Part shown: one piece after another, positions 1,822 to 25,845 of the stretch
How positions within the stretch are numbered: the stretch's first letter is position 1
Layout: each line of letters begins with the position of its first letter
Source of the DNA: a virus
Length of the DNA stretch: 27,741 bases
Strand: one strand, 5' to 3'
Virus record (IMG/VR): IMGVR_UViG_3300025430_000092
Span: 1-27,741 of that record
Notes under the pieces: model-generated
The model's input: only the letters and a program-made list of their open reading frames with translations
Told to the model about the DNA's origin: nothing
The model's database searches: none
Program-made: the position numbers and the translations under genes

Positions 1822-1845
1822 ACTTGACTCCTTATGAAAGACTCA

Positions 1846-1874
1846 AGTGTACCACAATGGACGAGGATTTGCAA
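1846..1874 (-). promoter_or_regulatory. Candidate promoter of the homing endonuclease gene
   Basis: On the minus strand, TTGCAA (1874-1869) and TACACT (1851-1846) are separated by exactly 17 bases, and a TG one base before the -10 gives an extended -10 (TGGTACACT). Each hexamer matches the sigma70 consensus at 4 of 6 positions. It lies between the capsid-gene terminator and the endonuclease RBS, so the mobile gene could be expressed independently of late transcription. Confidence 0.5.
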
Positions 1875-1913
1875 ATGTTTTTCTAAGTTGTTAGATTGTG
1901 CCTTTGATACGGG

Positions 1914-1943
1914 AAATAAAAAAGGCCCCTTGTGGGGGCCTTT
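1914..1943 (-). terminator. Rho-independent terminator after the major capsid gene
   Basis: Read on the minus strand: a 9-bp perfect stem AAAGGCCCC / GGGGCCTTT with a 5-nt loop (CACAA), followed by a U-rich run TTTTTTATTT. It begins about 29 bases beyond the capsid gene stop. This is the clearest intrinsic terminator in the late block and would limit late transcription into the endonuclease and distal virion genes. Confidence 0.85.
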
Positions 1944-1971
1944 AATTAAACTAAAAGTTTTAAATAGTAGT

Positions 1972-2874: not shown

Positions 2875-2889
2875 TTATGTGCTCCTTGA

Positions 2890-3789: not shown

Positions 3790-3805
3790 TTAAAAACTCC
3801 TAAGT

Positions 3806-4264: not shown

Positions 4265-5222
4265 TTAATTTCTCCAATTTTAAAACTTCAGCTGCATACA
4301 CTTTGGGGTCCATTTTGAACTTCTTCGCCAGCGCAAGCTGGGTCGTAGTCAGTTGTATCTTCTTTGTTCCAGAAGAACGACTTGCAGGTGCGGTGACAGA
4401 CGGCGTCTTTTTTGGAGGATCAGCAGGCGGCGTAGTTTCTGCCGTAGCCTGTCCAAACATATCTGGAAAGGTCTTTTTGATGCGGGAATCAATGGCCTCA
4501 TAGTACTGATCAGTACGTGGGTCTACCCCCGAATTCACTAGTTTTTGATGCAGTCCTAGTGCGTAACTGGTTATATCTTCGAATCCTGGTTGACCGTACC
4601 ACTGGTTTTTGGCTTGCCAGCGCAAGAGCTTTTCATCGCGGTAAGGTTGTTGGACCTGTTGTGGAGCTGAATATACATCATTTCTATCTTCTTGTAAAGG
4701 GGTCGTTTTGAAATTTTTTGCTTCTTCTGAACGAAGTTTAGCAACTGTCAACGCCTCCTGGGCAGCAATAATGGCATCTGTGTCAAATGCTTCTTGCGCT
4801 GCTTTGTAGTCACGCCTGGCTTTATCAAGCTCTGCTTCCGCTGCAGTTTTAGCCATAGCCGTGTACTGCTCTGTGCCCGTGTTGACGTATTGTTTGAGGC
4901 GTTTGTTTTCCTCAAGCATTTGCTGAGCTATTCTTTCTAGCTCTGCTTTCTCTCGCGCCATAGCTTCTTTAGCACGTCTTTCGTCGTGCCTTGCATGGGT
5001 GAGTTCTTTAATTCTTTCTTGGGCACCCTTGGTGTACTGATTAATTTCTTCATCAGTGGGGTCCTCTACCTCACGGTCTAGTGGCCTGCGCCCACGATCC
5101 GCAGGAGGTGTGTCATCAACAACTTCAATTTCAAAATCGTCGTCATTGTTTGTCTCTAAGGGTTTACCCTTGTCTTCAATTTCGTCAGGAAATTTGAATT
5201 CCTCGCCTTTAAATTCTGCCAT
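4257..5222 (-). CDS. Scaffold-like coiled-coil head-assembly protein
   Basis: The 321-aa protein begins with a strongly acidic, disordered segment (FPDEIEDKGK..., DDDFEIEVVDDTP), followed by a long charged helical region at about 66-175 (RIKELTHARHDERRAKEAMA and onward, heptad-like). It ends with a Pro/Thr linker and a basic C-terminal helix (LALAKKFKMDPKVYAAEVLKLEKL). This acidic-coil-basic-tail pattern and the place between portal and capsid genes are those of internal scaffolding proteins, whose basic C-terminus binds the coat protein. AAAGGA precedes the ATG. Sequence similarity to a named scaffold family cannot be shown by eye. Confidence 0.7.
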   Translation of the reverse strand: MAEFKGEEFKFPDEIEDKGKPLETNNDDDFEIEVVDDTPPADRGRRPLDREVEDPTDEEINQYTKGAQERIKELTHARHDERRAKEAMAREKAELERIAQQMLEENKRLKQYVNTGTEQYTAMAKTAAEAELDKARRDYKAAQEAFDTDAIIAAQEALTVAKLRSEEAKNFKTTPLQEDRNDVYSAPQQVQQPYRDEKLLRWQAKNQWYGQPGFEDITSYALGLHQKLVNSGVDPRTDQYYEAIDSRIKKTFPDMFGQATAETTPPADPPKKTPSVTAPASRSSGTKKIQLTTTQLALAKKFKMDPKVYAAEVLKLEKLNG

Positions 5223-5232
5223 TGTTTTTCCT

Positions 5233-5670
5233 TTATGCGCGGGTTATGCCACGGGGATCATCTACAACGCCGTCAACCTGATCATCATTGATGAACCGGA
5301 ATTCATTGCCGTAAATCTTAAAACGCGTACCTGCATAGGTACGTACCATAATGAAATCACCTTCCTTACACCAAGGTCCACTAGGAAACTTGTTCTTGTC
5401 TGCGTACGCATCTGGCCCAACTTTTAAAACAAACAACACGGTGGTTGCATGTTCTTCTTGTTTGGCGTAGAAGTCTGGACGCTCAAGGTCTAGCTCAGTA
5501 CCGTCAATTTTTTTAGAAACTTGGGGTACGCTACAAAGCAACCGATACCCGGATGGGCTAGGAAGCAGTGTTGCTTTATCCTCGTCTTTCTCTGGCGGTT
5601 TGGTAATTTGTTCAATTACCTCGACCGTTGGTTTGAGCTTTAACCGCTCAGGGAGTATGAGTTCACTCAT
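5233..5670 (-). CDS. GroES/cpn10-like co-chaperonin
   Basis: After a charged N-terminal extension (1-35), residues 36-138 follow the cpn10 pattern. GYRLLCSV stands where GroES has its first strand, followed by a mobile-loop-like segment (50-75). Next come TTVLFVLKVGPDAYADKN (GroES: G.VLAVG.G), WCKEGDFIMVRTYAGTRFKI (GroES: VGD.V.F..Y.G....), GNEFRFINDDQVDGVVDDP (GroES: E...I.E.DILA.V). The length of 145 aa exceeds the usual 95-100 because of the extension and a longer loop. Phage co-chaperonins such as T4 gp31 replace host GroES so that GroEL can fold the capsid protein; a head-block location fits. It overlaps the 64-aa gene upstream by 8 bases. No GroEL is seen. Confidence 0.75.
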   Translation of the reverse strand: MSELILPERLKLKPTVEVIEQITKPPEKDEDKATLLPSPSGYRLLCSVPQVSKKIDGTELDLERPDFYAKQEEHATTVLFVLKVGPDAYADKNKFPSGPWCKEGDFIMVRTYAGTRFKIYGNEFRFINDDQVDGVVDDPRGITRA

Positions 5671-5857
5671 CTTGTTTTTCTACCTTTTCTAGCAGGTCAA
5701 GTAATAAACCCTCTGCGATGGCTAGACCCGAAATCACCCCGCAAAGTTTTTGATATTGATCAAAAGTGGTGCACTGACCTGTTGCTAAGTCGTCAGCGTA
5801 ATTGTTCATTTGGTCGCGTAATTGTTTGCGCAGCGCGCCTGCGAAATTGACTATCAT
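5663..5857 (-). CDS. Small helical protein coupled to the portal gene, 64 aa
   Basis: The 64-aa product (MIVNFAGALRKQLRDQMNNY...) is predicted helical and hydrophilic, with an Ala/Leu-rich second half (GVISGLAIAEGLLLDLLEKVE). Its ATG overlaps the portal stop (ATGA-type overlap at 5854-5857), and its own stop overlaps the co-chaperonin start. All three are therefore likely translationally coupled. Similar 60-70 aa proteins directly after the portal gene occur in many podovirus-like phages without known function; that comparison is from memory. Confidence 0.75.
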   Translation of the reverse strand: MIVNFAGALRKQLRDQMNNYADDLATGQCTTFDQYQKLCGVISGLAIAEGLLLDLLEKVEKQDE

Positions 5858-8481
5858 TTAGTTGGTTTCTCCTTGGGTTGTGGGGTAGGCTGATTAGCTT
5901 GCATCTCTTGTTCGTGCATACGCTGGACGTCGCTCTCATAGCCAGAGTGGTCCAGTCCTTTTTTGTGTTTGTACAAGTCCGCCGCACGATCTTTACGTTT
6001 TTCTTGGAATTGCCCAGCCTTGTTGAGCGCGTCAATTTGAATACGCTTATTGTCAGTATGGAGCATTCCTGCCTTGTGCATTGCGTCAACTTGGATGCGT
6101 TTATCGTCCATGTGCAGACGACCCGCTTTCTCCATTGCGTTAACTTGTATTTTCTGCCCTTCCATGTCTTGACGTGCTTTAAACTCCTCGGCTTTAAGCT
6201 GCGTGTTGGCCTGCGCCTGAGCTGCTTTAGCCTGTACTTCTTGCGCTTTAATGTCAACTTCTTTTTGACGAATCTGCAATTCTTGCTGTTGTAACTGAAA
6301 CATCGGATCTTGTTGTTGCTGTTGAGCCTGCTGTTGTTGAGCCTGCTGTTGATGTTGTTGAAGAACCGCTTGAGCTGCTTGCGCCATGGCTTGTGACATC
6401 TGATACTCGACCTGTGGAGAAATCTTGTGGTCTTCGTCATTTGGAGGAATCGCCATGCCCATTTGCGCTTCAATACGTTTCTTGTACTCTAAACCAACGT
6501 GTTCAGCAATGTGCGCCGTCATCGCGCCTTGAATCTTAGGTGCATTGGGATTCTGACCTATCAACTGCATAATCAGTGGATCCTGCATAGCAGCCATGTG
6601 CACTTTAATATGTGACTCGTGATCTTGATACTCAAACGCTTTAACCGGCTCCATCTTAAGTATGGAGATGTTCTCAGATACTGGATTGCTTGGCTTAATG
6701 TCGTCTGGTAAAGGTACGAGTTTGTCCGCACCCTTGATGCCCATTACTTCAAGCATGCGTCTGTGCAACTCTGGCAAATCGTAAATATCAGGCGCCATCT
6801 GTGCCATTTGAATCACAGCTTGGTACTGAACAACACGTTGCGACATAGTCGCTGCATTGGGGTCGCTGACAGGGATAATGTCTACGTTGTCGTAATCATC
6901 TTGTTTAGCTGTTTTAGACCCGTACTCAGGCTCATACTCGTAGTTAACAGGTGTGTCTTCTTTAATTAGCGCGGCAAGAAGTTTTAATTCTTGTTTGAAT
7001 GTGTAGTGCATGCGGGCTTGAACAGCCGACATAACTTTAAGTTGTCTTTCTAACAAAGCGAGCGTTGTGCCAACAGGTGCTTGGCTGGACATGTCGCTAA
7101 TTTGCATATCTGCAGTAGCGGCAAATCTACGCCCCTCTTCGACAATTTTGTCTAATAATCCGGCTAAAACTGCACTAGGCTCCTTATATGGGAGCGGTAA
7201 AATGTTATCTCTTAGCGGACCCGACGCAATATCAACGTCGCGGAATTCTCCTGGTGCAATGGGCGTGTCATCACCTTTAATGCGAAGGCCACGCGATTTA
7301 AGTCCTCCGGGGAGGTTAGATAAAGTTCCTGCGTCGACCAGTTGACGCATAATCGAGGTGGCGGATTTTGCGAAGCCACCGATAAGATGGAAGAGTCCGA
7401 AGCCATAGGCTCCAAATCCTGGGATGTATTGGTAGTGGACAAAGTGTTGTCGCTTAAGTCTGTTTTCATCATCTTCCTTCCAGTTGCGGCGTACGGACAG
7501 TACGTTATTACTACCTTTGATTAAGGTTACCACATATGGAAGTGCAATGCCAGTTTCTTCACCTTTGTCGTTTACATCTTCATAGCCTTTTAAATCTAAG
7601 TCAGCGTGAACTTCATAAATAACATAACGATCATCGTTTAAATCGTTGAATCCAGTTTCTTGATCTTTGGCTTTTTGAATCTCATCTCTTAACTGCGTAG
7701 CGTCAGGTAATTCAAAATCTAGGTAAAAACCCGCCTTTTGCAATTTTAAAATTTCATTCTTAGTCTTGCGCATCACGTGCGTCATGCGGTAGCAAGTGTC
7801 CATATCGGTCGTACCGTAAGGCAAAATCATATCTTCCGCAGGTACAAACATAGATGTTTGGCGCCCTAAAGTGATGTCATCATACACTTTTTTGAACGCT
7901 GAACCGGTTGCTGGAAGGGACCACAACATGCGCTCATGTTCGGGTCTAAACTCCACCATCACCTCAGTCAACTCGTAGTTCATGTCATCCTCAACCCGGA
8001 TGGCAGATTCTTTCTTGGCTGGCGTTTCTTTACCTAATATCTTAGTGCGAACGGGGCCTTGGGCGGGAAACATCTCGGTGATCGTTTCACTTTGGAATCG
8101 CACTACGGCTTCAGTAATCATTGGGTGGAAGACACCTGATGCTCCGTTCCAAGGCTCCGTTCTCTCTTCGTATTGGAGTCCCAAAAGCTTGAGCCCCATT
8201 ACATATGCTTTCTCCCATTCTTTGCGGGAATTTTTATCATTCTCAATATCGTTTGCCAAATCGTTGGCTAAAGATCCCATGACAGACTCTGGAATTTCTT
8301 CTGCTAAATTTTTATAGAAATCATTGCCTTCGCCGTCTGGCTTGATCTCCATCTCCAAGTCCCCTGCATGAATCTTGACCGCCTCTGGATCAACAACTTC
8401 AATCTCAATTGGTTCGTCAACATGACTTGGATCTGTGCCCTGCATGTCAGAGTAAAGTGATTTGTCTATATTAGTAGCCAT
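5854..8481 (-). CDS. Portal protein with Gln-rich repetitive C-terminal tail
   Basis: The 875-aa protein lies directly after the large terminase (8-base gap) and before the scaffold cluster, the standard portal position. The core (about 1-690) includes ERTEPWNGASGVFHPMI, RMLWSLPATGSAFKKVY, FVPAEDMILPYGTTD and HYQYIPGFGAYGFGLFHLIG, all characteristic of portal proteins of aquatic podovirus-like phages. It forms the dodecameric ring at the packaging vertex. From about 690 the protein becomes an extended helical tail with a poly-Gln segment (around residue 700-720) and three 18-residue repeats. AAGGAC precedes the ATG. The size is larger than the usual 500-750 because of the tail. Confidence 0.88.
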   Translation of the reverse strand: MATNIDKSLYSDMQGTDPSHVDEPIEIEVVDPEAVKIHAGDLEMEIKPDGEGNDFYKNLAEEIPESVMGSLANDLANDIENDKNSRKEWEKAYVMGLKLLGLQYEERTEPWNGASGVFHPMITEAVVRFQSETITEMFPAQGPVRTKILGKETPAKKESAIRVEDDMNYELTEVMVEFRPEHERMLWSLPATGSAFKKVYDDITLGRQTSMFVPAEDMILPYGTTDMDTCYRMTHVMRKTKNEILKLQKAGFYLDFELPDATQLRDEIQKAKDQETGFNDLNDDRYVIYEVHADLDLKGYEDVNDKGEETGIALPYVVTLIKGSNNVLSVRRNWKEDDENRLKRQHFVHYQYIPGFGAYGFGLFHLIGGFAKSATSIMRQLVDAGTLSNLPGGLKSRGLRIKGDDTPIAPGEFRDVDIASGPLRDNILPLPYKEPSAVLAGLLDKIVEEGRRFAATADMQISDMSSQAPVGTTLALLERQLKVMSAVQARMHYTFKQELKLLAALIKEDTPVNYEYEPEYGSKTAKQDDYDNVDIIPVSDPNAATMSQRVVQYQAVIQMAQMAPDIYDLPELHRRMLEVMGIKGADKLVPLPDDIKPSNPVSENISILKMEPVKAFEYQDHESHIKVHMAAMQDPLIMQLIGQNPNAPKIQGAMTAHIAEHVGLEYKKRIEAQMGMAIPPNDEDHKISPQVEYQMSQAMAQAAQAVLQQHQQQAQQQQAQQQQQDPMFQLQQQELQIRQKEVDIKAQEVQAKAAQAQANTQLKAEEFKARQDMEGQKIQVNAMEKAGRLHMDDKRIQVDAMHKAGMLHTDNKRIQIDALNKAGQFQEKRKDRAADLYKHKKGLDHSGYESDVQRMHEQEMQANQPTPQPKEKPTK
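5989..6150 (-). repeat. Three 54-bp tandem repeats in the portal gene
   Basis: Three successive 18-codon units encode IQVNAMEKAGRLHMDDKR, IQVDAMHKAGMLHTDNKR and IQIDALNKAGQFQEKRKD. The first two match at 13 of 18 residues and the third is more diverged. They lie in the helical tail downstream of the poly-Gln stretch and look like an expanded coiled-coil module. Confidence 0.85.
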
Positions 8482-8489
8482 GTTTGTCC

Positions 8490-10031
8490 TTAATAATACG
8501 CGTGTTGTCTACGCTTGAAATGTATGGGGTCGTCGCGTTCGTCCGAGTCAAGTTGAACAAACCCGCCTTGTCTAAATCTCATTAACGCTTGCGTGGTCGT
8601 ATCCACGTAGTCATCGTGTTCACCAACTGGAAATACTGCGATTTCCTCAATGACTTCTCTAGCCCAGCGTGTGTCTGGTGCCCACACGACGCCGGATGCA
8701 AACAAGTCAGACACGGCATTTAACCGCACCATCTTATCGTTGCCTCGGCTTGGATTTGTTTCTTGCACATGGATACCCATGGCTCTGAGTTCCTGTATCA
8801 GCGGTGCTCCAGAAGCTTTTTTCTCCACAATGAACGCGTCAGGTTCCCAATTCTTGTAGTGTTTAAGTGCAGCTTGTTTGAGATCCGGAAACGCCATTCT
8901 ATCCTTGAACGCATCTAATAGTATGATATGCGGGCGCATCTTTTCATACTCGTTAAAGAACACGCCCCATGTTGTGCATGCTGAATAGTCAGAACTATTC
9001 TTGGTTTCATACGCCGTATCCCAGGACTGGATCACGTATTCACACTGCGGAGGGTCTTCTTTATCCCAAATCTTCCACGATTTTCTGGGCACAATCGCTG
9101 ATGTGTCCGTCGTGGGTTGCTGCATGTACTGCGCATTCCAAAACTTGGGATCAATCGACGCTTTTGTTGTTTTTAAAACATCTAACTTCCACTGTTCAGG
9201 CCAAAGTGACTTCTCCTCTGGCGTATTCTCATTTAATATAGCAGGCAGCTCTACCAACTCCCAGGGCAGTGAGTCAGGATTCTTGATCTGGTAGTCCAAC
9301 AGTCGTCCCGTCAGGTCAAGCAGCGACCAACGCGTCATAATCACAATGATCGCGCCCCCCGGCATCAAACGTTGAAGCGGTCCTGTCTGGAACCACGACC
9401 ATGCGGTATCAAAAGCCAGTCTTGAATTTGCTTTAACGTCTTGCTCGGAATGGGGATCATCAATAACAAACAAATCAGCACCGCGACCGGCAAGAGCGCC
9501 ACCAACACCAGCAGCATAATACTGTCCGCCAACAGAAGTAGACCACTTACCAGCGGCTTTTTGGTCGTCAGCCACATTTGTGGCGGGGAAAATCTCATGG
9601 TACTCCTCCGATTCAATCAAGTTACGTACCCGGCGCCCGAAATCCTCAGACAAACCCGCCGTGTGAGTGCCCATGATAATTTTTTTGTCAGGGAATTTAC
9701 CTAAAAAGTAGGCGGGGAACAGATAAGAACTGAACTCAGACTTGCCCATACGTGGGGCAATGTTGATAATGACGCGCCGTTTCTTACCTTCAATCACATC
9801 TGTAAAGATCTTTGCCAGTTTCTTGTGGTGCGGTCCAATCTTGAACCCCGGATACACCGCAGATGCAAAACCAAGCATAGATTTCTCAGCAGATACCAGT
9901 CTTGCCCGGCGCTCTCGTACTTCTAAATCTTCAAATAGCTCCATTTTGTCCTGCAAGGACATCTTGGGCAGTGCTTTCATCAGCGCCTGCAGCTCGATTT
10001 TACTGAGCGTTGTCAGGTTCTGTAAGTTCAT
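8490..10031 (-). CDS. terL: Terminase large subunit (TerL)
   Basis: The 513-aa packaging motor carries both domains of phage TerL. ATPase part: Walker A variant IAPRMGKSE (91-99), Walker B LFVIDDP (187-193) and the coupling motif TRW (233-235). Nuclease part, RNase H fold: Asp338 in VIQSWDTAYETKNSSDYS, Glu403 in AFIVEKKASGAPLIQEL, and the acidic HDDYVDT near 472-478. It hydrolyses ATP to translocate DNA into the prohead through the portal and cuts concatemers. The first ATG overlaps the small-subunit gene by 32 bases without a clear RBS. A second ATG at 9980, with AGG six bases upstream, would give a 496-aa protein and may be the real start. Confidence 0.95.
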   Translation of the reverse strand: MNLQNLTTLSKIELQALMKALPKMSLQDKMELFEDLEVRERRARLVSAEKSMLGFASAVYPGFKIGPHHKKLAKIFTDVIEGKKRRVIINIAPRMGKSEFSSYLFPAYFLGKFPDKKIIMGTHTAGLSEDFGRRVRNLIESEEYHEIFPATNVADDQKAAGKWSTSVGGQYYAAGVGGALAGRGADLFVIDDPHSEQDVKANSRLAFDTAWSWFQTGPLQRLMPGGAIIVIMTRWSLLDLTGRLLDYQIKNPDSLPWELVELPAILNENTPEEKSLWPEQWKLDVLKTTKASIDPKFWNAQYMQQPTTDTSAIVPRKSWKIWDKEDPPQCEYVIQSWDTAYETKNSSDYSACTTWGVFFNEYEKMRPHIILLDAFKDRMAFPDLKQAALKHYKNWEPDAFIVEKKASGAPLIQELRAMGIHVQETNPSRGNDKMVRLNAVSDLFASGVVWAPDTRWAREVIEEIAVFPVGEHDDYVDTTTQALMRFRQGGFVQLDSDERDDPIHFKRRQHAYY

Positions 10032-10620
10032 ACTTGGCGCTGGTTGTTTCTACGATTAAAGTATCCGGTGCTTGTTCAATATCAACAACATCAACCACCC
10101 CCATGAAGCGATTGAGCTTTTCTTTGATACGCATTTCGAGTTCAGCGTCGGATAATTCGTCCTTTTTGATCTCGATTTTTTCTGTAAACAAACCAACTTC
10201 AGTAACTTTTCCCAGCAAAGTGAGTGCTTTTAGTCTAATATTTGCGTTAGAATTCTTGGTTTCTTCGACGATTTTGGCAACGGTATAACCCCGTAATTGC
10301 TTAGCTTGTTCAATAAACTCCCAATCATAAGCGGTCAACATACCAGTTAAATGGCGTACGGCTTCGGGAGTCTTAATAGAAACAAGTGCTTCTTTGGAAG
10401 CGTGTTCGTCGGTAGTTGTAATTAATTTTTGAAATGTTTTTCTGGCAGACGCGGTTTCGTGGGCCTCATCTATTTCGTCGTCCAGTGTAGCGCCAAGTTC
10501 AGCTAACCAGTCTATTGTTTTTACTTGGGCGTCGAGCACCTGCTGGGCTGACACAGCGTCCAGCTCAGTAAACCCCGACTTGGTGATGTCGGGCTCAAAT
10601 TGCACCAAATCTTCAAACAT
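10000..10620 (-). CDS. terS: Probable terminase small subunit (TerS)
   Basis: The 206-aa protein is encoded immediately upstream of TerL and overlaps it. Its central part is helical (TPEAVRHLTGMLTAYDWEFI, then QAKQLRGYTVAKIVEETKNS, then a repeat-like RLKALTLLGKVTEVGLF), followed by a charged helix and an acidic tail. This architecture recurs in the first gene of the packaging operon in aquatic podovirus-like phages and is taken to be the DNA-recognition subunit. Classical N-terminal helix-turn-helix residues are not obvious, so the name rests on position and overall resemblance. TTAGGA lies eight bases before the ATG. Confidence 0.65.
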   Translation of the reverse strand: MFEDLVQFEPDITKSGFTELDAVSAQQVLDAQVKTIDWLAELGATLDDEIDEAHETASARKTFQKLITTTDEHASKEALVSIKTPEAVRHLTGMLTAYDWEFIEQAKQLRGYTVAKIVEETKNSNANIRLKALTLLGKVTEVGLFTEKIEIKKDELSDAELEMRIKEKLNRFMGVVDVVDIEQAPDTLIVETTSAKYELTEPDNAQ

Positions 10621-10681: not shown

Positions 10682-10715
10682 GCGTTTGCTTCTCCTTGAT
10701 CTTCGGATCACTTTT

Positions 10716-10742
10716 ACCCCAGCTAGTCTGGGGTATTTTTTT
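10716..10742 (+). terminator. Terminator-like hairpin in the divergent region
   Basis: Stem ACCCCAG / CTGGGGT with a CTAGT loop is followed by A and seven T residues, a textbook intrinsic terminator for plus-strand transcription. A UUCG hairpin sits five bases upstream. No gene ends here on the plus strand, so it terminates a short leader or small RNA, or stops stray plus-strand transcription. Its arm is shared with the later hairpins at 11445, 12621, 13868 and 14573. Confidence 0.7.
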
Positions 10743-15434: not shown

Positions 15435-16388
15435 ATGTTTAGCAACAACATCAGAAACATCGGATCAGTTAACACCTACGCCAAGGCAAAGGTGTTCTTT
15501 GAGAACACAGCGCTACCCAAGTGGCGCACCAAGAAAATATGGGAGGACAACGAGCGCCCACTTTCAGGTAGACGTCAGCATCATTACCGCATCGTCAAGG
15601 TAGATCAAGCCTATGAGTTGCATTTATATCATCAAGTCATGGCTAGGTTTAGTCAACCCGATGCGGACGGTAATGAGTTACGCCAATACTCATACCACAG
15701 TAGCGTGACGAGTAAACAGTTTATGTATTACGTGGTGAACGTCGGGTTCGATCAAGCGTTCGCAACAAGTACATCGGAGGTTGCGCTCGTGCCTATACGT
15801 GGTGATTTAAGGGACACTCAATTACTATTCGATAACCGCAACAGGCTCATCGTTGATCGCTCGACACACATGCAGTTGTACCGTAGCGTATCAACAGACG
15901 AGGACAAGATGCGTAACAAAGCGGTGCGTGACTTCTTTAGACCGTTCGTAACTGTGTGCATGTTCAGGTTATCTGAGTACCTAGACAATTTCCTGTACGA
16001 CCACAACAAGGGCATCCCGTTTGGTCAGGGCTCAACGGTATCGTATGGTGAGCGTGAAAATATGCGTGACTTCTTTAATTGTCCTGACTCCGATGCGATA
16101 CGAGACATGGCGGTCAACACGATCATTCATGACAGCGCACAGCTAGTGTATGACAGCATGATGAGTAGGCGCATACACGACAAGCTAGGTTGGCAGACTC
16201 GCAAATTTTCTCGTGATCATCAACTTGAGATGCTGACTACCAACAACGAGCTAGTGACAGAGAAGCAACTAGAGAAGGCGTTGCTCGACCGTTTGGTACG
16301 CATCATAGGCAAACGTGTTAGTGGGAAGAAACTAATACCTAAGTTCTGCAAACCAGGGGATTTCCCCTATACCAATAATTTTTATTAA
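15435..16388 (+). CDS. Unknown 317-aa protein upstream of the MoxR gene
   Basis: AGGAGGTAATT precedes the ATG. The 317-aa product is soluble, rich in Arg, Asn, His and Tyr, with RNIGSVNTYAKAKVFFENTA, a His-rich SGRRQHHYRIVKV, a helical HDSAQLVYDSMMSRRIHDKL region and a basic C-terminus (IIGKRVSGKKLIPKFCKPGD). No Walker, HNH, nuclease or methylase motif is visible. It ends 104 bases before the MoxR-like gene. It could belong functionally with that module, since it is the last gene before the new promoter, but this is unproven. Confidence 0.75.
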   Translation: MFSNNIRNIGSVNTYAKAKVFFENTALPKWRTKKIWEDNERPLSGRRQHHYRIVKVDQAYELHLYHQVMARFSQPDADGNELRQYSYHSSVTSKQFMYYVVNVGFDQAFATSTSEVALVPIRGDLRDTQLLFDNRNRLIVDRSTHMQLYRSVSTDEDKMRNKAVRDFFRPFVTVCMFRLSEYLDNFLYDHNKGIPFGQGSTVSYGERENMRDFFNCPDSDAIRDMAVNTIIHDSAQLVYDSMMSRRIHDKLGWQTRKFSRDHQLEMLTTNNELVTEKQLEKALLDRLVRIIGKRVSGKKLIPKFCKPGDFPYTNNFY

Positions 16389-16393
16389 GGAGT

Positions 16394-16432
16394 TTGACAA
16401 GTTGTAAAAGGATTGACAATCCATGATATACT
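16394..16432 (+). promoter_or_regulatory. Promoter region of the MoxR/VWA operon
   Basis: TGATATACT (16424-16432) is an extended -10 with a 5 of 6 match. There is no consensus -35 at 17 bases; TTGTAA lies 19 bases upstream. Two TTGACA copies (16394-16399 and 16413-16418) lie 19 bases apart, the second inside a dyad GGATT-gac-AATCC (16410-16422). That dyad could be an operator. Transcription would start near 16439, just before a 20-bp palindrome. Confidence 0.5.
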
Positions 16433-16446
16433 AGAGTTCCCTTAGC

Positions 16447-16466
16447 GGTGGCACATATGTGCCACC
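16447..16466 (+). promoter_or_regulatory. Perfect 20-bp palindrome in the MoxR leader
   Basis: GGTGGCACAT is followed directly by its reverse complement. In DNA it is a perfect operator-like dyad; in RNA it gives an 8-bp GGTGGCAC / GTGCCACC stem with an ATAT loop near the predicted 5' end. It is followed by ATTCATTATCTTTATAGGAG, a poor terminator tail, so operator or 5'-end stabiliser are more likely roles. Confidence 0.7.
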
Positions 16467-16492
16467 ATTCATTATCTTTATAGGAGTTAGCA

Positions 16493-17620
16493 ATGAGAAA
16501 CTTTTTATCTTTCAAACAAGTGCAATCGTTAGTAGCAACTGTCGGACACAAGCGTACAGTTATTGTCGAGGGTGAGAATGGTATCGGTAAGACCGCGCTC
16601 TTTCATGCCATCAAGTCTATGCCACAGTTTGCCAATCACATCGCAGTCGATCCTATTGATTGCACACAACTATCTGACGGTAGCGTGTGGATGCCTGACC
16701 TTGATCGTGAGCATGGTGTGTCACGTGAGTTACCCAATGAGCGCTTCGGTGTCAACAAGACCAATCAGAAGGGTATCAACGGTAGCAAGCCGATACTAAT
16801 TGCGCTCGATGAGATTGCCAAGGCACCGCAGTTTATTAAGAACGTACTCGCACCGATCATCTACGAGAGACGTGTTGGTAACTATCATTTGCCCGAGGGT
16901 AGTGTGGTTGTGTGCTTCACCAATCTTGCAGTCGAGGGCTTAGGTGATTCGATACAGGCGCACTTGCGTAATCGTTTGACGTTCGTCAAGATGCGTAAGC
17001 CTACAGTGGACGAGTGGATCAATGACTATGCAGTTAACTCAGGTGTCAACGCTAACGTGCTTGCGTTCTGTCACAACTTCCCAATGGTGTTCGATTCATT
17101 CCTTGACTATGAGAAAGGCGGTAAGTATGAAGGCAAAGATCTCTCGAAAGACAATGGTTATATTTTTAATCCACGTAGCACTGCTGTTGCCTATGCTACT
17201 CCTCGAAGCCTCGTGTCGGCTAGTGATATTCTCAATGCAGGCGATGGGGTTTTGGACGATGATACTCTTGAATGTGCTCTTGTGGGTACTGTTGGTGCTA
17301 CCACTGCTGAGGCTTTAAGTTCATTCATTCGTTTCGGACGTGACATCTGTTCGCTTGATCGTGTGCTCGCTGACCCTGACAACGCACCGCTGTCTGACAA
17401 TCCTACTGCACAGCTTGTGCAAGTGTTCCAATTCGTATCACGTGTCGATAAGCGTGAGGATGCCGAGCAAGTTGTCAAGTATGTGTGGCGCATGAAGGCA
17501 GAGATGCAGTCGATCTTTGTGAATACGGTGGCGCAGTCTCAGCGTGTGGCTATCTACGCTACGTTGACTGAGTTCGGTAAGATGCTCAGCGCACACAAGA
17601 TCTACTTCAGCACCAAGTAA
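16493..17620 (+). CDS. MoxR-like AAA+ ATPase
   Basis: The 375-aa protein has Walker A GENGIGKT (27-34), Walker B ILIALDE (101-107), a sensor-1-like strand GSVVVCFTNL (Asn150) and Arg residues in AHLRNRLTFVKMRKPT for the arginine finger region. The layout fits the MoxR/CbbQ/CobS group, which works with VWA-domain partners to remodel proteins or insert metals. The C-terminal half is helical with acidic patches. It is the first gene behind a strong leader, and the partner VWA gene is two genes on, 200 bases downstream. TAGGAG precedes the ATG. Confidence 0.85.
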   Translation: MRNFLSFKQVQSLVATVGHKRTVIVEGENGIGKTALFHAIKSMPQFANHIAVDPIDCTQLSDGSVWMPDLDREHGVSRELPNERFGVNKTNQKGINGSKPILIALDEIAKAPQFIKNVLAPIIYERRVGNYHLPEGSVVVCFTNLAVEGLGDSIQAHLRNRLTFVKMRKPTVDEWINDYAVNSGVNANVLAFCHNFPMVFDSFLDYEKGGKYEGKDLSKDNGYIFNPRSTAVAYATPRSLVSASDILNAGDGVLDDDTLECALVGTVGATTAEALSSFIRFGRDICSLDRVLADPDNAPLSDNPTAQLVQVFQFVSRVDKREDAEQVVKYVWRMKAEMQSIFVNTVAQSQRVAIYATLTEFGKMLSAHKIYFSTK

Positions 17621-17622
17621 TC

Positions 17623-17826
17623 ATGAAAGGTATACATCTCCAGACTTCGCTCAATGTCACGATGCGTGACGGTAAACGTAAGATCATTGCGTACATCACT
17701 ATCATTGACGTTGCCAAGCATGCGATCATCGCTAACACAGAGGTTGAGGTTGATAGCGAGGCGGAGTTGGATGATGTGTACAACAGAATTGAATTGCTTT
17801 ATTCATTAACAAGGGAGGAACTATGA
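17623..17826 (+). CDS. 67-aa linker-gene protein in the MoxR/VWA operon
   Basis: The gene starts 2 bases after the MoxR stop and its stop overlaps the VWA start (ATGA), so it is part of the same unit. The product, MKGIHLQTSLNVTMRDGKRK onward, reads as three beta strands (IIAYITIIDV, HAIIANTEVEVD) and a final helix (ELDDVYNRIELLYSLTREEL). It has no recognised motif. It may be an adaptor or subunit of the module; that is inferred only from gene arrangement. Confidence 0.7.
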   Translation: MKGIHLQTSLNVTMRDGKRKIIAYITIIDVAKHAIIANTEVEVDSEAELDDVYNRIELLYSLTREEL

Positions 17827-19010
17827 GCTTTGATAAATTAACACCACAACAAAAGATACAGAAAGCCAACATCGACTGCATGCGACATCCCAAGTTCGCA
17901 TTGTTGTCAGGCGTTATCTGTATGGGTAAGTCTGAGGTCAAGGACGGCGTGCCAACTGCCGGTACCAATGGCAAGGACAAGTACTACGGCGCAGAGTTTA
18001 TCTCTGACTTCACACTCAAGCAGTTGCGTTATCTTGTATTGCATGAGAACTTTCACGTTGCGCTCAAGCATTGCGTGTTGCCGATGTATCGTGATCTCGA
18101 TAAGAAGTTTGGCGCACACATCAACAACATTGCTATGGACTTCTGTATCAACGGCATGATCGAGGAGCTTGACCCTGACTTCAAGTTCGTTGAGCGCCCC
18201 ACAAAAGTACCGCCACTTGTTGACGATCAGTTCAAGGGTATGTCTTACATTCAGATCTTGCAAGCGTTGCTCAAGGATGCCAATTTTGTTGAGTTGCAAC
18301 CAATCGACTCGCACGATAAGGGTGACGGCGATAACGCTACGGAGATTGACGGCGTACCCAAGGATGCAATCGCTAGGCAAGTAGACGATGCCAATCGTCA
18401 AGGCGAGATGCTTGTGCGTAAGATGGCGGGCAATGGTGCGGGTGGTCGTGACATCCTTGAGACTGCACGTGAGCGTCAGACTGATTGGCGTGAGGCGTTG
18501 CGTGAGTTCATTCAGACTATCTCATCAGGCGATGAGAACTCTAGGTTCTGTCCTCCCAACAAGCGTATGCTTGCGAGTGGGTTCGTGATGCCTTCACACT
18601 TCACCGAGTCAATGGGTGAGTTGACGATTGCGTGTGATACATCAGGTTCTATGCACCCTTACTACAGTTTGATCTTCGGTGAGATCGCTAAGATCTGTGC
18701 TGACGTTAAGCCTGACGGTGTGCGTGTGATGTGGTGGGACACAGAGGTGTGCGGTGATCAAGAGTTCAAGCCTCATGAGTACGACAGCATTGCAAACCTT
18801 ATGTCACCCAAGGGTGGCGGTGGTACTACGCCGACATGCGTTACCGAGTACATCGAGGAGAAGAAACTCAAGCCTACTGCATTACTGTGGTTGTCTGACG
18901 GTTACTTGTACTGCGATGATCCGGCGGTGCCATGCCCGTCTCTATGGGGTATCGTTGACAACACCGAGTTCGTACCGCAACACGGCAAAGTAGTTCGTAT
19001 TCAATCTTAA
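17823..19010 (+). CDS. VWA-domain protein with N-terminal HExxH metallopeptidase-like domain
   Basis: The 395-aa product matches the two-part DUF2201 arrangement. The N-terminal half has H74-E-N-F-H78 (LVLHENFHVALKH), followed by NNIAMDFCIN (102-110), where an Asp can serve as third ligand. The middle is acidic and linker-like (165-200). The C-terminal VWA domain has the MIDAS motif D272-T-S-G-S276 (LTIACDTSGSM), a Thr-rich loop GGGGTTPTC and WLSDGYLY. VWA proteins of this kind act with MoxR ATPases. RBS AGGGAGGAACT precedes the ATG. All residues needed for metal binding at both sites seem present. Confidence 0.85.
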   Translation: MSFDKLTPQQKIQKANIDCMRHPKFALLSGVICMGKSEVKDGVPTAGTNGKDKYYGAEFISDFTLKQLRYLVLHENFHVALKHCVLPMYRDLDKKFGAHINNIAMDFCINGMIEELDPDFKFVERPTKVPPLVDDQFKGMSYIQILQALLKDANFVELQPIDSHDKGDGDNATEIDGVPKDAIARQVDDANRQGEMLVRKMAGNGAGGRDILETARERQTDWREALREFIQTISSGDENSRFCPPNKRMLASGFVMPSHFTESMGELTIACDTSGSMHPYYSLIFGEIAKICADVKPDGVRVMWWDTEVCGDQEFKPHEYDSIANLMSPKGGGGTTPTCVTEYIEEKKLKPTALLWLSDGYLYCDDPAVPCPSLWGIVDNTEFVPQHGKVVRIQS

Positions 19011-19037
19011 TTTTTTAACCACAAAGGAGAAGCAACC

Positions 19038-19913
19038 ATGACAATAAGATACAACCTAGATACATGTGCAATGTTAGTAGAGTTCAACGCAAGCGTATGG
19101 ACTGCACGCAAGTTAGACAGGGGCGTGACCGATGAGGTCGTGTCCAATAAAAATGCGGGGGCTAAAGACTCTGCTCGTGTTAACAAGAACTTACTCGCAG
19201 GACGTGACGAGTTAGCGGACATTGTGCAGTACGTTGGTAAGATCCGCCAGTTCGTATACGACAACACGTTGCCTTGGAGTGACTCAGGTCTACGCATGTT
19301 GCCGACAGTTAACTTCATTAAGTTCTGTGAGAAGATGGCTGACTTCGAGGCTGACTTCACTAAGCTCGTACAAGACTTCGTGCAGATCTACCCCACGCTC
19401 ATTACGGCGCAGGCTATGGCGCTAGGGGATATGTTTAAGCGTGATGACTATCCAACTGCCAATGAGATCATGACTAAGTTTGCGTTCAGAGTTAACTACA
19501 TGCCTATGCCCGCGAGTGGTGACTTCCGTGTGGATGTGGGCAACGATGCACAGAAGTATCTACAAGAACAATTAGAACGTGTGGCACAAGAGCGTGTAGA
19601 CAATGCGATGGCGGACATCAAGCGTAGGCTAGGCGATCACCTCAAGCGTATGTCTGACAGACTGACAACTGACTATGTGGGTGGTGAGGCAAAGCAACGT
19701 AGGTTCCATGACTCCCTTGTGGATGGTGCGTTGGAGTTGTGCGATCTTACTAAAGCACTGAATGTGACGGGTGACAAGGCGTTGGAGGAGGCACGTCAAT
19801 CCCTTGAGCAAGCGCTGTTGCATAAAGATGCCAACGAGTTACGCAAGAACGAGGCGGTTCGTCAAGACACCAAGAAAGCGGTGGATGCGATCCTTGATAA
19901 GTTTAGTTTCTAA
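19038..19913 (+). CDS. Helical protein of the MoxR/VWA cluster, 291 aa (possibly DUF3150-like)
   Basis: AAAGGAGAAGCAACC precedes the ATG. The 291-aa protein is mostly alpha-helical, with early sequence LVEFNASVWTARKLDRGVTD and long charged helices from about 180 (LQEQLERVAQERVDNAMADI, then KRRLGDHLKRMSDRL). The phrase SVWTARKLDR with a following Thr/Val and Lys recalls DUF3150, a family found beside CobS/MoxR-type ATPases and VWA genes in mobile elements; I cannot confirm this without a profile search. It probably serves as the third component or client of the ATPase module. It ends 10 bases before the next gene. Confidence 0.65.
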   Translation: MTIRYNLDTCAMLVEFNASVWTARKLDRGVTDEVVSNKNAGAKDSARVNKNLLAGRDELADIVQYVGKIRQFVYDNTLPWSDSGLRMLPTVNFIKFCEKMADFEADFTKLVQDFVQIYPTLITAQAMALGDMFKRDDYPTANEIMTKFAFRVNYMPMPASGDFRVDVGNDAQKYLQEQLERVAQERVDNAMADIKRRLGDHLKRMSDRLTTDYVGGEAKQRRFHDSLVDGALELCDLTKALNVTGDKALEEARQSLEQALLHKDANELRKNEAVRQDTKKAVDAILDKFSF

Positions 19914-20688: not shown

Positions 20689-21189
20689 ATGACAACATTA
20701 CAGGATGCACTTAAAAAAGCTCTTGAGAAAGATGCAAACGAATGGGACAAAGATCAACAACGCATAGACAAGGAGAAACAAATGCCTAAACACATGTTCA
20801 AACCAACCAACAACGCGAGTCGTGCAACATTCCACTTCATCCGCGACAATCCTAACTTAACACAGAAAGAAATCTTGTTTGAATTAGGTTCTCGGGGGTT
20901 TAAAGAAAACTCAGTCTCATCTTTAATTACGCAGTTTATCCGTTCAGGTTACGTACAACGTGTTGATGGGAGACTCACTGCTTTGACTCAAGAATATAAG
21001 CCAGTCAAAATAAAATCTATGAAAAACAAAATAGGAAAAGTTATCCACAAGCCTAGCAAACCTAAAGTGCCCGACGCAATCCAAGCGATCATTGAAGATG
21101 CGTGGACACCAAGTAAAATATTAGACACATTGTCAATCGTGCAAGCCAAACAGTTGTATACTGAGCTTAAACAAATCTTTTCGAACTAG
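20689..21189 (+). CDS. Winged-helix-like DNA-binding protein, 166 aa
   Basis: The start at 20689 is chosen for AAGGAGAAACTAAC directly upstream. The N-terminal 50 residues are a charged helix (ALKKALEKDANEWDKDQQRI). Residues about 55-105 (FHFIRDNPNLTQKEILFELG, then SRGFKENSVSSLITQFIRSG and YVQRVDGRLTAL) fit a winged helix: two helices, a recognition helix, then a beta wing. A basic linker and a C-terminal helical domain follow. It is probably a transcription or replication regulator. The following untranslated region starts inside its stop codon. Confidence 0.65.
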   Translation: MTTLQDALKKALEKDANEWDKDQQRIDKEKQMPKHMFKPTNNASRATFHFIRDNPNLTQKEILFELGSRGFKENSVSSLITQFIRSGYVQRVDGRLTALTQEYKPVKIKSMKNKIGKVIHKPSKPKVPDAIQAIIEDAWTPSKILDTLSIVQAKQLYTELKQIFSN

Positions 21190-21360
21190 TATCGGGGTGT
21201 TTCACAGTTGCTAATAATGGCGGAGCCTAATAGATGTGAACCCATTAAACTGATTCGGTAGGCTTCCCCGATGCTTAAGTATTTTGGGCCTACCGAACCT
21301 CCTGCACCGCGAACCGAGGGGGCGTGGAATCTATTTATCCCCCTCACCATTTTTAAGGAG
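21188..21360 (+). ncRNA. Candidate structured RNA: H-type pseudoknot plus RBS-sequestering element
   Basis: Helix S1 pairs AGTATCGGGG (21188-21197) with CCCCGATGCT (21266-21275), 10 bp with one T-G. Helix S2 pairs TTCGGTAGGC (21254-21263) with GCCTACCGAA (21288-21297), 10 bp perfect. S1's 3' strand lies in the loop of S2, so both together form an H-type pseudoknot with 2-nt and 12-nt connecting loops. The long loop holds a further hairpin TTCACA / TGTGAA (21201-21206, 21235-21240). Next CTCCT (21299-21303) can pair with the RBS AGGAG (21356-21360), enclosing a GAGGGGG / CCCCCTC hairpin (21316-21345). This resembles a riboswitch or protein-sensing leader of the 155-aa gene. No known class was recognised. 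Confidence 0.6.
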
Positions 21361-21365: not shown

Positions 21366-21833
21366 ATGAAAACAAAAGCAAAGTACAAGCAACGACCGCT
21401 TGAGAAAATACAGCACCAACAAGTGCAGGAAAGAATTGCAAAACTAGAGAAAGCATTAGCTGAGTCAGAACAAGAGAAAGCTTTTTTAAGTAAACGTGTA
21501 GAGTCAGTCTCAGAGGTTGCTGAGAACTACAAAAAAGGATGGGAAGAAGCAAGTGCAGATCAGAGTCGTTATAGATTTTTAAAAGGTCTTGAAGTTATGG
21601 TGTTAGATAATGAAGGCGCCAAGTACTTAAAAGAGGATGCACTAACTGAGTATTGCGACACACAACTTAAAGCTTTTCACGAAGCAATATACGGATCTTT
21701 TGGTAAAGGTTTTAGTGCCACGTGGTTGACAAAGCACAACACTCAAATTAACAACGCGCTTAGGAGAGTTGTAGCAAAGGAAGATTCTGGAGTATTTTTG
21801 GAAAACATATCACACCCAAGGAGTAAGAAATGA
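21366..21833 (+). CDS. Unknown coiled-coil protein, 155 aa
   Basis: The ATG at 21366 follows AAGGAG by five bases; a GTG two codons earlier is too close to the RBS. The protein has a basic start (MKTKAKYKQRPLEKIQHQQV), a long coiled coil to about residue 60 (RIAKLEKALAESEQEKAFLS), then a mixed region with YRFLKGLEVMVLDNEGAKYL and a helical tail. Similar phage proteins with ...RYRFLRE... after a coil are of unknown function. The structured leader immediately upstream suggests its translation is controlled. Confidence 0.7.
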   Translation: MKTKAKYKQRPLEKIQHQQVQERIAKLEKALAESEQEKAFLSKRVESVSEVAENYKKGWEEASADQSRYRFLKGLEVMVLDNEGAKYLKEDALTEYCDTQLKAFHEAIYGSFGKGFSATWLTKHNTQINNALRRVVAKEDSGVFLENISHPRSKK

Positions 21834-22454: not shown

Positions 22455-22486
22455 ATACAACAAAATTAGAGGAGGCAACTTTCTAA
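22343..22486 (+). CDS. Overlapping 47-aa basic protein in another frame
   Basis: A very good RBS, AGGAGG, lies six bases before this ATG, inside the 69-aa gene. The frame reads MVKKLHKQTDQVRKNSTWPF, continues with PTRLLTQEPKRVKRKKVDTT and ends at a TAA that shares its last base with the nuclease start (TAATG). The product is basic with a WPFP core. The strong RBS, the TAATG junction and the use of all the space up to the nuclease gene support a real gene that overlaps its neighbour by 112 bases. Confidence 0.6.
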   Translation: MVKKLHKQTDQVRKNSTWPFPTRLLTQEPKRVKRKKVDTTKLEEATF

Positions 22487-22779
22487 TGGGAATGACGCCA
22501 GAGGCTAAGGTCAAGAAACAAATCAGGGCAATCCTAGACCGAGTAGGCGCCTACTATTCAATGCCAATTGGTAGTGGGTTTGGTAATGCGGGCACGCCGG
22601 ATTTTCTGGTGTGCTACAAAGGTAAGTTCATTGCTATTGAAGCAAAGGCAGGTAAAGGTAAAGTAACAGCATTACAAGGGCATCAGCTTGGCAAAATTAT
22701 GCAAGCCGGAGGTGAAGCGTTTATTATCAATGATAAGAATATTGATCAACTAGAGGAGGTATTAAATGAAATCAGATAA
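22486..22779 (+). CDS. VRR-NUC domain nuclease, 97 aa
   Basis: The whole protein is a minimal VRR-NUC fold of the PD-(D/E)xK superfamily: Glu6, GTPDF with Asp39, IEAKAG with Glu52 and Lys54, TALQGHQLGKI with Gln64, then AGGEAFII. VRR-NUC nucleases of phages cut branched DNA, for example as Holliday-junction resolvases before packaging, or assist replication. The stand-alone size of 97 aa is typical of phage versions. GAGGAGGCAACTTTCTA precedes the ATG. It lies three genes past the GSxxRP protein and six genes upstream of the polymerase. Confidence 0.88.
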   Translation: MGMTPEAKVKKQIRAILDRVGAYYSMPIGSGFGNAGTPDFLVCYKGKFIAIEAKAGKGKVTALQGHQLGKIMQAGGEAFIINDKNIDQLEEVLNEIR

Positions 22780-23649: not shown

Positions 23650-23878
23650 AATTTTATTAACGAGGTTTGGTATGTCAGACGTTCAGCACGATGTGATCGG
23701 CGTATCGGTAGATCAGGAGGATAAATTTATCAAGTTCAGCGCAGGCGGTGCTGTTAAACAAACCTTAACAGATCCATTGATGACTGATAACAACAAATCC
23801 ATTGGTCAGCGCAATATTGAATGGTTGCATGAGAAGTTGGATGAGTGGATTAATAAACAATTGGAACTCGACAAATGA
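23642..23878 (+). CDS. Unknown 78-aa protein before DNA polymerase
   Basis: The start ATG at 23642 has AAAGGA six bases upstream and is preferred to a TTG two codons earlier. The product (MNEILLTRFGMSDVQHDVIG...) is a beta-rich half followed by a helix (QRNIEWLHEKLDEWINKQLE). Its stop overlaps the polymerase start (ATGA), so the two genes are likely coupled. No family is recognised. Confidence 0.65.
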   Translation: MNEILLTRFGMSDVQHDVIGVSVDQEDKFIKFSAGGAVKQTLTDPLMTDNNKSIGQRNIEWLHEKLDEWINKQLELDK

Positions 23879-25845
23879 GCGCACCATACAAAACAATCCT
23901 GACGATTGATTTCGAAACACGTTGGGACAGTAAAGGGTACACGCTATCGAAGATGACAACTGAGGAGTACATAAGAGATGCACGATTCAAAGCTTTCGGA
24001 GCCTGTATACATGAGTACGGAACAGACAAAGTCACCCAGTGGTACAGAGGAGATGAACTACCACGCATCTTATCTACGTACGACTGGAAAAAGACTGCCA
24101 TTCTTGCCCACAACGCACAGTTCGACGTCTCGATCATCTCGTGGAAATACGGAATCAAACCCGCTTTTATCTTCGACACCTTATCAATGGCGCGCGCTCT
24201 ACGTGGCGTGGAAGTTGGAAACTCACTTGCAAGATTGGCTGAAGCATTTGGACTCCCTCCCAAGGGAAAGGCAGTACATTCAACGGATGGACTCGAACAA
24301 CTTAGTGAAATCGCTATTGAGCGAGAGTTGGCAGAATATTGCAAACACGACGTATACCTATGTGAACAAATTTTCGGACGGTTTATACAAGGTTACCCTA
24401 CTAAAGAACTCCGACTGATAGACATGACACTTCGTATGTATACGGAGCCTGTGTTGGAATTAGATAAACGCATGCTGATTGAAGCGCTTACAGATGAAAG
24501 GGATAAACGTGAAGGACTACTACAAAGGCTCGGCGTGGATGAGACTGCACTCGCTTCGAACAAGCAGTTTGCAGACTTACTTAAATCACTGGGAGTTGAC
24601 CCTCCGACAAAGATTAGTAAAACCACGGATAAGCAAACCCTTGCACTTGCTAAAAACGATGCACATTTCCAAGCCCTTCTCAATGGGGAGAATGAAGACG
24701 TTGCCCTCGTTTGTGAAGCTCGCCTTAAGGTTAAGTCGACTACTGAAAGAACTCGAGCGCAACGATTCCTCGATATCAGCCAACGCGGTGCATTACCGGT
24801 TCCGCTATCGTACTACGGAGCGAAGTCGGGACGTTGGACGGCGTCCAAAGGCTCCGCTATCAATATGCAAAACCTCAAACGAGGGTCGTTCTTACGTAAA
24901 GCTATTATGGCGCCCGAAGGTTATCAACTTGTCGTCGGGGATCTCTCGCAGATTGAACCGAGAGTACTCGCATGGTTTTCGGATTACGGAGACATGCTCG
25001 AAATTTTCAGGAGCGGTGCTGACGCTTACGCCTCGTTCGGCGCTCAGATGTTTAACATACCCGGACTCACTAAAGAAACTCATCCCGATCTACGGCAGTC
25101 TGCGAAAAGCGCGCTCTTGGGTTGCGGGTATGGTTTAGGTTGGGCATCGTTTGCTACGCAGTTACTCGTGGGCTTTCTTGGTGCTCCGCCAGTCAGATAC
25201 ACAAAAGATTTCGCAAAGAAGTTAGGCGTTGATAAAGAGTACGTTGAGAAGTTCTTGGACAACAAAGAAAACCTAGAGAAGATGGCGGACATCCCGCACA
25301 CATGTACAGATGGTGAACTGCTGATTCATTGCGTGGCGTCTAAAGCAATCATTGATATATACAGACGTACTGCTCAACCAGTAGTAAGTTTCTGGGAGAT
25401 GTGTCAGGAGATGATGGCGCGTTGTCTAATCAATGGCGAGGAGATGTCTTATAAGTGTATAATTTTCCGCAAAGGTGAGATAGAATTACCCAACGGTATG
25501 AAGCTCTTGTATCCTGATCTACGTCAGATCAAGGACGAGGATAAGAAGACACACTGGGTGTACGGCGAGGATGCGACTAAGCTGTATGCGGGTAAGATTA
25601 CGAACAACATCATTCAAGGTGTTGCGCGTATTGTGATGACGGACGGTATGCTCAGGGTACAAAAGAGATACCCCGTCAAGGGAACTGTGCACGACGAGTT
25701 AATCTGCGTTGTGCCGGATGAGGAAGCAAATGACGCTAAGACTTGGGTCTTGGCGCAGATGACTATGGAGCCACGGTATTTACCGGGCATACCCCTCAAC
25801 GCTGACGGTGGCGTTCACCGTAGATATGGGTTAGCAAAGAACTAG
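23875..25845 (+). CDS. polA: Family A DNA polymerase with 3'-5' exonuclease
   Basis: The 656-aa replicative polymerase lacks a 5'-3' exonuclease domain. The proofreading domain shows Exo I Asp12/Glu14 (TIDFETRW), Exo II AHNAQFDVSI and Exo III with YCKHD. The polymerase part has SYYGAKSGRWTASKG, motif A GDLSQIEPRV (Asp356), motif B Arg407, Lys411 and Tyr419, and motif C VHDE (His606-Asp607-Glu608). In motif B the residue equivalent to E. coli Phe762 is Leu415. The ATG overlaps the previous gene. The following metallopeptidase gene starts 9 bases after its stop. A helicase and primase are not in the window. Confidence 0.95.
   Translation: MSAPYKTILTIDFETRWDSKGYTLSKMTTEEYIRDARFKAFGACIHEYGTDKVTQWYRGDELPRILSTYDWKKTAILAHNAQFDVSIISWKYGIKPAFIFDTLSMARALRGVEVGNSLARLAEAFGLPPKGKAVHSTDGLEQLSEIAIERELAEYCKHDVYLCEQIFGRFIQGYPTKELRLIDMTLRMYTEPVLELDKRMLIEALTDERDKREGLLQRLGVDETALASNKQFADLLKSLGVDPPTKISKTTDKQTLALAKNDAHFQALLNGENEDVALVCEARLKVKSTTERTRAQRFLDISQRGALPVPLSYYGAKSGRWTASKGSAINMQNLKRGSFLRKAIMAPEGYQLVVGDLSQIEPRVLAWFSDYGDMLEIFRSGADAYASFGAQMFNIPGLTKETHPDLRQSAKSALLGCGYGLGWASFATQLLVGFLGAPPVRYTKDFAKKLGVDKEYVEKFLDNKENLEKMADIPHTCTDGELLIHCVASKAIIDIYRRTAQPVVSFWEMCQEMMARCLINGEEMSYKCIIFRKGEIELPNGMKLLYPDLRQIKDEDKKTHWVYGEDATKLYAGKITNNIIQGVARIVMTDGMLRVQKRYPVKGTVHDELICVVPDEEANDAKTWVLAQMTMEPRYLPGIPLNADGGVHRRYGLAKN

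Follow-up and report, generated by a model that had tools for sequence, protein, structure and literature searches.

What occupies the space between two genes of the plus-strand early operon in an uncultured freshwater phage, and what does it do there? The window, which is the whole stretch of DNA analysed here, is a 27,741-base IMG/VR virus record. The initial annotation had reported a gap of 176 nt at this locus, and the gap was found again from the upstream stop codon TAG (21187-21189) to the ATG at 21366. It holds a structured RNA of ~160 nt (about 140-165 nt across the family). The features of the locus are collected in Table 1.

Table 1. Helices, loops, motifs and genes at the locus (positions in the window)
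Feature	Position	Strand	Remarks
S1 5' strand, PK1, AGTATCGGGG	21188..21197	+	pairs 21266-21275; first two bases within the upstream TAG stop
S1 3' strand, PK1, CCCCGATGCT	21266..21275	+	near-total sequence turnover, pairing retained
S2 5' strand, PK1, TTCGGTAGGCTT	21254..21265	+	pairs 21286-21297
S2 3' strand, PK1, GGGCCTACCGAA	21286..21297	+	
P2 outer helix 5' strand, CAGTT	21205..21209	+	pairs 21248-21252; conserved in the window clade
P2 outer helix 3' strand	21248..21252	+	
P2 inner helix 5' strand, AATGG	21216..21220	+	pairs 21242-21246
P2 inner helix 3' strand	21242..21246	+	
P2 terminal loop, invariant core, family consensus AAGCCTAGTAGATGCGA	21224..21239	+	
LR 5' strand, AATAGAT, in the P2 loop	21229..21235	+	pairs 21329-21335
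LR 3' strand, ATCTATT, in the PK2 loop L3	21329..21335	+	
P4 5' strand, CCGCG, PK2	21307..21311	+	pairs 21323-21327
P4 3' strand, CGTGG, PK2	21323..21327	+	
P5 5' strand, GAGGGGG, PK2	21316..21322	+	pairs 21339-21345
P5 3' strand, CCCCCTC, PK2	21339..21345	+	last helix of the RNA
Putative anti-SD, CTCCT, in the spacer before PK2	21299..21303	+	family consensus YUCC
Shine-Dalgarno AGGAG of the next gene	21356..21360	+	start codon 21366
Upstream gene, MarR-like winged-helix protein, up to 172 aa	20671..21189	+	likely start M7; Pfam MarR_2 sub-threshold; relatives found
Downstream gene, 155-aa coiled-coil protein	21366..21833	+	function unassigned
VRR-NUC/Hjc-like nuclease	22486..22779	+	in relatives, the commonest direct downstream neighbour of the RNA
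Family A DNA polymerase	23875..25845	+	always on the same strand as the RNA

The 5' part of the RNA is an H-type pseudoknot, PK1. Its two 10-bp helices, S1 and S2, lie exactly where the initial annotation had placed them, and its first loop contains the hairpin P2. The 10-bp core of S2 (TTCGGTAGGC, 21254-21263, with GCCTACCGAA, 21288-21297) is lengthened by two wobble pairs, out to 21265/21286. The S1/S2 pairing was picked separately for each sequence in a register-fixed search with shuffled controls, and its significance was therefore taken from the shuffle test. The best S1+S2 pseudoknot score was 52.1 in the window, compared with 13.0 in 60 dinucleotide shuffles (0/60). The mean score of 40 non-redundant homologues was 50.4 versus 15.0, and only 1 of 2,400 shuffles equalled or exceeded the observed value. 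A chance origin of the helices, which had been judged unlikely from the single sequence, is thus disfavoured by both tests. Across the family, the mean helix length was 10.5 bp for S1 and 11 bp for S2. The family alignment showed that the sequences of both helices turn over almost wholly and that their register is constant: S1 ends 29-38 nt 5' of AGAT, and S2 starts 17-26 nt, usually 19-20 nt, 3' of it. Compensatory changes were also seen between close relatives (C-G to U-A in S1 of L004/L012; G-C to A-U in S2 of L009/L015). The minimum free energy fold without pseudoknots was unremarkable (z = -1.16), because the element is pseudoknotted; ordinary single-sequence folding would therefore miss it.

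The 3' part is a second pseudoknot. At this position the initial annotation had described a 7-bp G/C hairpin. The helix GAGGGGG/CCCCCTC does exist (P5), but it is not a simple hairpin; together with CCGCG/CGTGG (P4) it forms the H-type pseudoknot PK2. The loops of PK1 and PK2 are tied together by LR, a 7-bp long-range helix that had been overlooked. Its strands in the family are AGTAGAT, from the P2 loop, and ATCTACT, from the PK2 loop. Invariant unpaired bases (GCC, G, GA) flank LR on both sides, as expected for a core that serves binding or tertiary contacts. The family order is S1 5' strand, P2 hairpin (loop AAGCCTAGTAGATGCGA), S2 5' strand, S1 3' strand, loop, S2 3' strand, YUCC spacer, P4 5' strand, A, P5 5' strand, P4 3' strand, AATCTACTT, P5 3' strand, SD and start codon. 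An alternative pairing inside the element, AGCCTA/TAGGCT, was rejected because it is broken in L009.

Homologues were collected in several ways. Close relatives were located via the flanking proteins and a DNA pattern. The downstream polymerase gene was used as bait and gave 80 phage loci, and a leader profile detected distant homologues in ~20 of them. Two exact patterns gave 82 matching contigs, and 14 further loci lay outside that list. The extra matches of another pattern, CAGTTGCTAAT..CCTAATAG, were unrelated sequence and were discarded. Overall, the RNA was present in 137 loci (some of them pieces of the same contig) on about 100 IMG/VR contigs, with 74 distinct RNA sequences and never more than one copy per locus. 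These counts are lower bounds because the collection scans used exact patterns.

Covariation was scored for S1, P2, LR, P4 and P5 on a MAFFT alignment of 32 sequences. The results showed that 22 of the 33 pairs changed on both sides. The score was 0.301 versus 0.144 in shuffles (0/500), and slid controls did not exceed 0.116. Kinship among the sequences inflates covariation counts, which is why slid and shuffled controls and a non-redundant set were important. MAFFT alone misaligns S2, which is absent from the 33-pair score and was therefore judged by the register-fixed search with its shuffled controls. In the inner helix of P2, all 5 counted columns had two-sided changes, and 82% of cells were paired. 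LR was paired in 99.6% of cells, with double changes at 3 of its 7 pairs (A-U/G-C/U-A, G-C/A-U, U-A/C-G). P4 (98% paired) had double changes at 4/5 pairs, and P5 (99% paired) at 3 pairs. Loss of the helices or a lack of compensatory changes among homologues had been named in advance as evidence against the proposed structure; the homologues keep the pairing and carry compensatory changes. On comparative evidence, and short of chemical probing, we take the fold to be established.

A fold of this stability could act as a stability or insulator element. The isolated duplex energies of S1, S2 and P5 are -16.8, -19.1 and -13.6 kcal/mol, respectively, and the compact fold sits at an intercistronic site whatever its neighbours are. 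The tandem pseudoknots would block 3'-5' exonucleases or other RNases and separate the expression of the flanking genes. A nuclease block, however, needs no strict conservation of the P2 loop, LR and UCC, and we consider such a stability or insulator element improbable.

The RNA was then compared with known classes. Rfam 15 covariance models gave no match at the gathering cut-off in the window and 13 relatives, and permissive Rfam scans gave chance-level matches only. The architecture of two pseudoknots and a third helix matches nothing in Rfam 15, in agreement with the initial annotation, which had recognised no riboswitch or ribozyme class. A search of open-licence papers found no description of this RNA; it may already stand, with no function assigned, in one of the large catalogues of candidate phage RNAs. 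Translational leaders with pseudoknots are known, and the present RNA is a new class, larger and differently built. Like translational riboswitches, it has a conserved and covarying fold just upstream of a ribosome binding site. As in the SAM-II, preQ1-II/III and SAM/SAH riboswitches, a pseudoknot lies directly 5' of the SD in an mRNA leader, and SD sequestration is possible. Unlike these riboswitches, it matches no covariance model and has tandem pseudoknots with a 7-bp loop-loop helix; its downstream genes span no single pathway, and a ligand is only hypothetical here.

Resemblances to other structured RNAs were partial. PK2, a compact G/C-rich H-type pseudoknot of about 40 nt, recalls the type III antitoxin ToxI. 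ToxI consists of H-type pseudoknot repeats, whereas PK2 is a single copy with no repeat array and is locked to a second pseudoknot. Identity with ToxI was rejected, as there is one copy per locus and no ToxN-like family among the neighbours scanned. The phi29 pRNA (about 170-nt) is likewise a phage-encoded structured RNA, but the loop-loop helix is intramolecular here, the location in a replication operon argues against a pRNA, and there was no Rfam match. A tRNA-like structure was discarded: ACCA follows P5 in the window, but ACTT, ACTA and CATC stand there in relatives, and ARAGORN found no tRNA. S1 and S2 do have the P3/P7 order of a group I intron, without its conserved sequence; the element lies between complete ORFs, no Rfam intron matched, and this candidate was also rejected.

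Over all loci, the RNA was co-oriented with the VRR-NUC/polymerase genes by 241 to 0 counts. The directly downstream gene was drawn from at least seven unrelated families. It is the VRR-NUC/Hjc-like nuclease in most members and, in several clades, a member of a coiled-coil family. L009/L013 lack the 155-aa gene, and the RNA there precedes a 37-aa membrane peptide. In L154, L187 and L209 the RNA precedes a RecB/Cas4-like PD-(D/E)XK exonuclease; no close polymerase relative was found on these contigs, which possibly represent a different phage lineage. In L204, L205 and L211 its position is 3' of the polymerase gene, ahead of a small PHROG-unknown protein. The genomes of L204 and L211 encode AAA/DUF2201 proteins that share only about 30-40% identity with those of the window, and the RNA copy there is independently placed.

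The T4 gene 32 autoregulatory element is a phage mRNA pseudoknot 5' of a DNA-metabolism gene. The present RNA is likewise a phage mRNA pseudoknot upstream of such a gene, but it is much larger, has no single gene partner and is absent from many relatives with the same polymerase. The autoregulatory leader suggested by the initial annotation, if taken as control of one fixed gene (T4 gp32/gp43 type), is unlikely because of the seven or more downstream families. A regulator encoded elsewhere is compatible with these data.

On the upstream side, the stop codon of the preceding ORF overlaps the S1 5' strand in 39/54 members and is nearby in nearly all others. A stop within or beside S1 could point to readthrough or recoding stimulated by PK1. 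However, an indel shifts the post-stop frame between the window and L004, in-frame stops follow, and the genes upstream show no relationship to one another; a ribosome positioned at the stop would also already occupy S1. Readthrough was rejected on the unconserved frame and appears highly improbable. As the stop lies within S1, a terminating ribosome would be expected to unfold PK1, and the RNA could thereby also sense upstream translation.

Wherever the available sequence reached far enough, the start codon was located 14-32 nt (mostly 20-23) 3' of P5, and an SD is present in all members but one. CTCCT and AGGAG, pointed out in the initial annotation as a pairing anti-RBS and RBS, are both present in the window. 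The proposed order of fold, anti-RBS and RBS holds in most of the family: in 36 of 39 non-redundant members, UCC lies in the 10 nt preceding P4, and the complementarity of the UCC spacer to the SD exceeded that of shuffled spacers (0/1000). In L150 and L072, UCUC replaces UCC and still matches GAGA in their own SD. L128 (4163-4310, minus strand) is the only member with neither a spacer UCC nor a recognisable SD, here before the VRR-NUC start. The pairing itself did not covary across members (10.35 observed versus 10.64 with partners permuted), and a covarying anti-SD was rejected. Since SD swaps among members do not lower the complementarity, sequestration of the SD by UCC is plausible rather than demonstrated.

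The distribution of the RNA was patchy, and it was missing from near-complete relatives of 62-63 kb. In RNA-less relatives the VRR-NUC start mostly overlaps the preceding gene (gap -1/-4), so the RNA with its own SD replaces translational coupling. L053 has the order DUF3310, RNA, coiled-coil, VRR-NUC, while L055 (G004, around 7000-7400) has DUF3310, coiled-coil, VRR-NUC without the RNA and with the early module described below. The two loci are a natural comparison of the RNA absent or present just before the coiled-coil gene, and they indicate a discrete cassette that can be absent. At least nine presence changes were counted on the polymerase tree, for which sampling is biased towards RNA carriers. 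A relative of the upstream gene in MW202879 was not followed by such an RNA, and the RNA model did not match KPP25 or Rhizobium phage RHph_TM3_14A. The PK2 pattern gave no match in GTDB (84,980 bacterial and archaeal species, each represented by one genome), and blastn of the leaders of the window and L047 against 50,697 phage records gave chance matches only.

We believe that a cis-acting translational leader of a new RNA class is the best explanation, with a probability of roughly 0.45. Control of translation in cis is favoured because a ribosome binding site constantly follows the locked fold, irrespective of the gene. The fold, its conservation, its patchy occurrence and its position are shown by the data: the RNA fills the space between the stop codon of one ORF and the ribosome binding site of the next. 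In the mechanism that we infer, including the effect on translation, the trigger and the partner, the RNA would act in a polycistronic early mRNA as the 5' leader of any following ORF. The locked fold would present or hide the SD just 3' of PK2, with the UCC upstream of PK2 probably pairing with it. Translation of the next ORF would then depend on the folding state of the RNA, for which a ligand, a protein or ribosomes terminating at the S1 stop are candidate triggers. The SD-adjacent position before unrelated families, the replaced coupling, the UCC/SD complementarity, the conserved fold and the constant strand all count for this leader. Against it count the UCC-SD pairing without covariation, the accessory nature of the RNA, and the varying target gene, which a leader of specific regulatory logic would not usually have; the juxtaposition with the SD could also come from genome compaction alone.

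Some of the same observations would suit an autonomous phage noncoding RNA that is excised from the mRNA and acts in trans, e.g., as a decoy for a host or defence protein or as a replication scaffold. The accessory distribution fits it: the RNA is a single-copy cassette, cleanly present or absent, next to unrelated neighbours. The invariant unpaired loop bases amid freely changing helices and the placement downstream of the polymerase gene in L204, L205 and L211 are consistent with it. But the RNA is never away from an SD, except in L128, and never on the opposite strand, and with the upstream stop so often in S1, translating ribosomes would disturb its 5' end. A function in trans is therefore unlikely in our view.

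A processive antiterminator acting on RNA polymerase in the replication operon was also weighed. Like the HK022 put RNA and EAR, the RNA is a structured sense RNA in a phage or bacterial operon that is independent of gene identity (for put, PMC9378689). It is always in the sense orientation, mid-operon and upstream of the polymerase gene in most members, and its neighbours are interchangeable. Unlike put and EAR, with which no shared sequence or structure was found, it is SD-adjacent, a close apposition that antitermination does not predict. Moreover, no strong terminator-like site occurs on the plus strand from the RNA to the end of the window, and some members carry the RNA downstream of the polymerase gene. 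We consider an antiterminator quite improbable.

The window also carries an early module (15435-19913) that encodes an AAA ATPase (16493-17620), a DUF2201 metallopeptidase/VWA protein (17823-19010) and a DUF3150-like protein (19038-19913). The PHROG label 'HNH endonuclease' on the DUF2201 protein looks wrong. The module accompanied the RNA in nearly all of the large contigs tested. The AAA protein was found in 16/16 searched RNA-bearing contigs of at least 44 kb (in two, only distant homologues, about 30% identical) and in 1/8 RNA-less contigs longer than 40 kb. G004 has the module without the RNA, and RHph_TM3_14A has AAA/DUF2201 homologues without it. Because of these exceptions, the co-occurrence of module and RNA may reflect lineage history, and it does not show that the two are functionally linked. 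Further upstream, the coding strand switches near 10.6-11.1 kb, with a minus-strand block below (264-10620) and the plus-strand early genes above; a terminator-like hairpin, TACCCCAGCTAGTCTGGGGTA, followed by a T run, lies at 10715-10735.

Because phage genomes are tightly packed, an RNA of 160 nt that many phages preserve through compensatory mutation must repay its cost. In the most far-reaching reading, it would be a new viral regulatory RNA class in which two H-type pseudoknots, locked by a loop-loop helix round invariant unpaired bases, sense a small molecule or host factor and switch the translation of phage DNA-metabolism genes during infection. We regard this fuller picture as somewhat unlikely. 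As a compact test system, the locus could show how ribosomes deal with a pseudoknot placed between a stop and a start codon. If a ligand or protein target exists, the RNA would reveal an unrecognised signal during the infection of freshwater bacteria.
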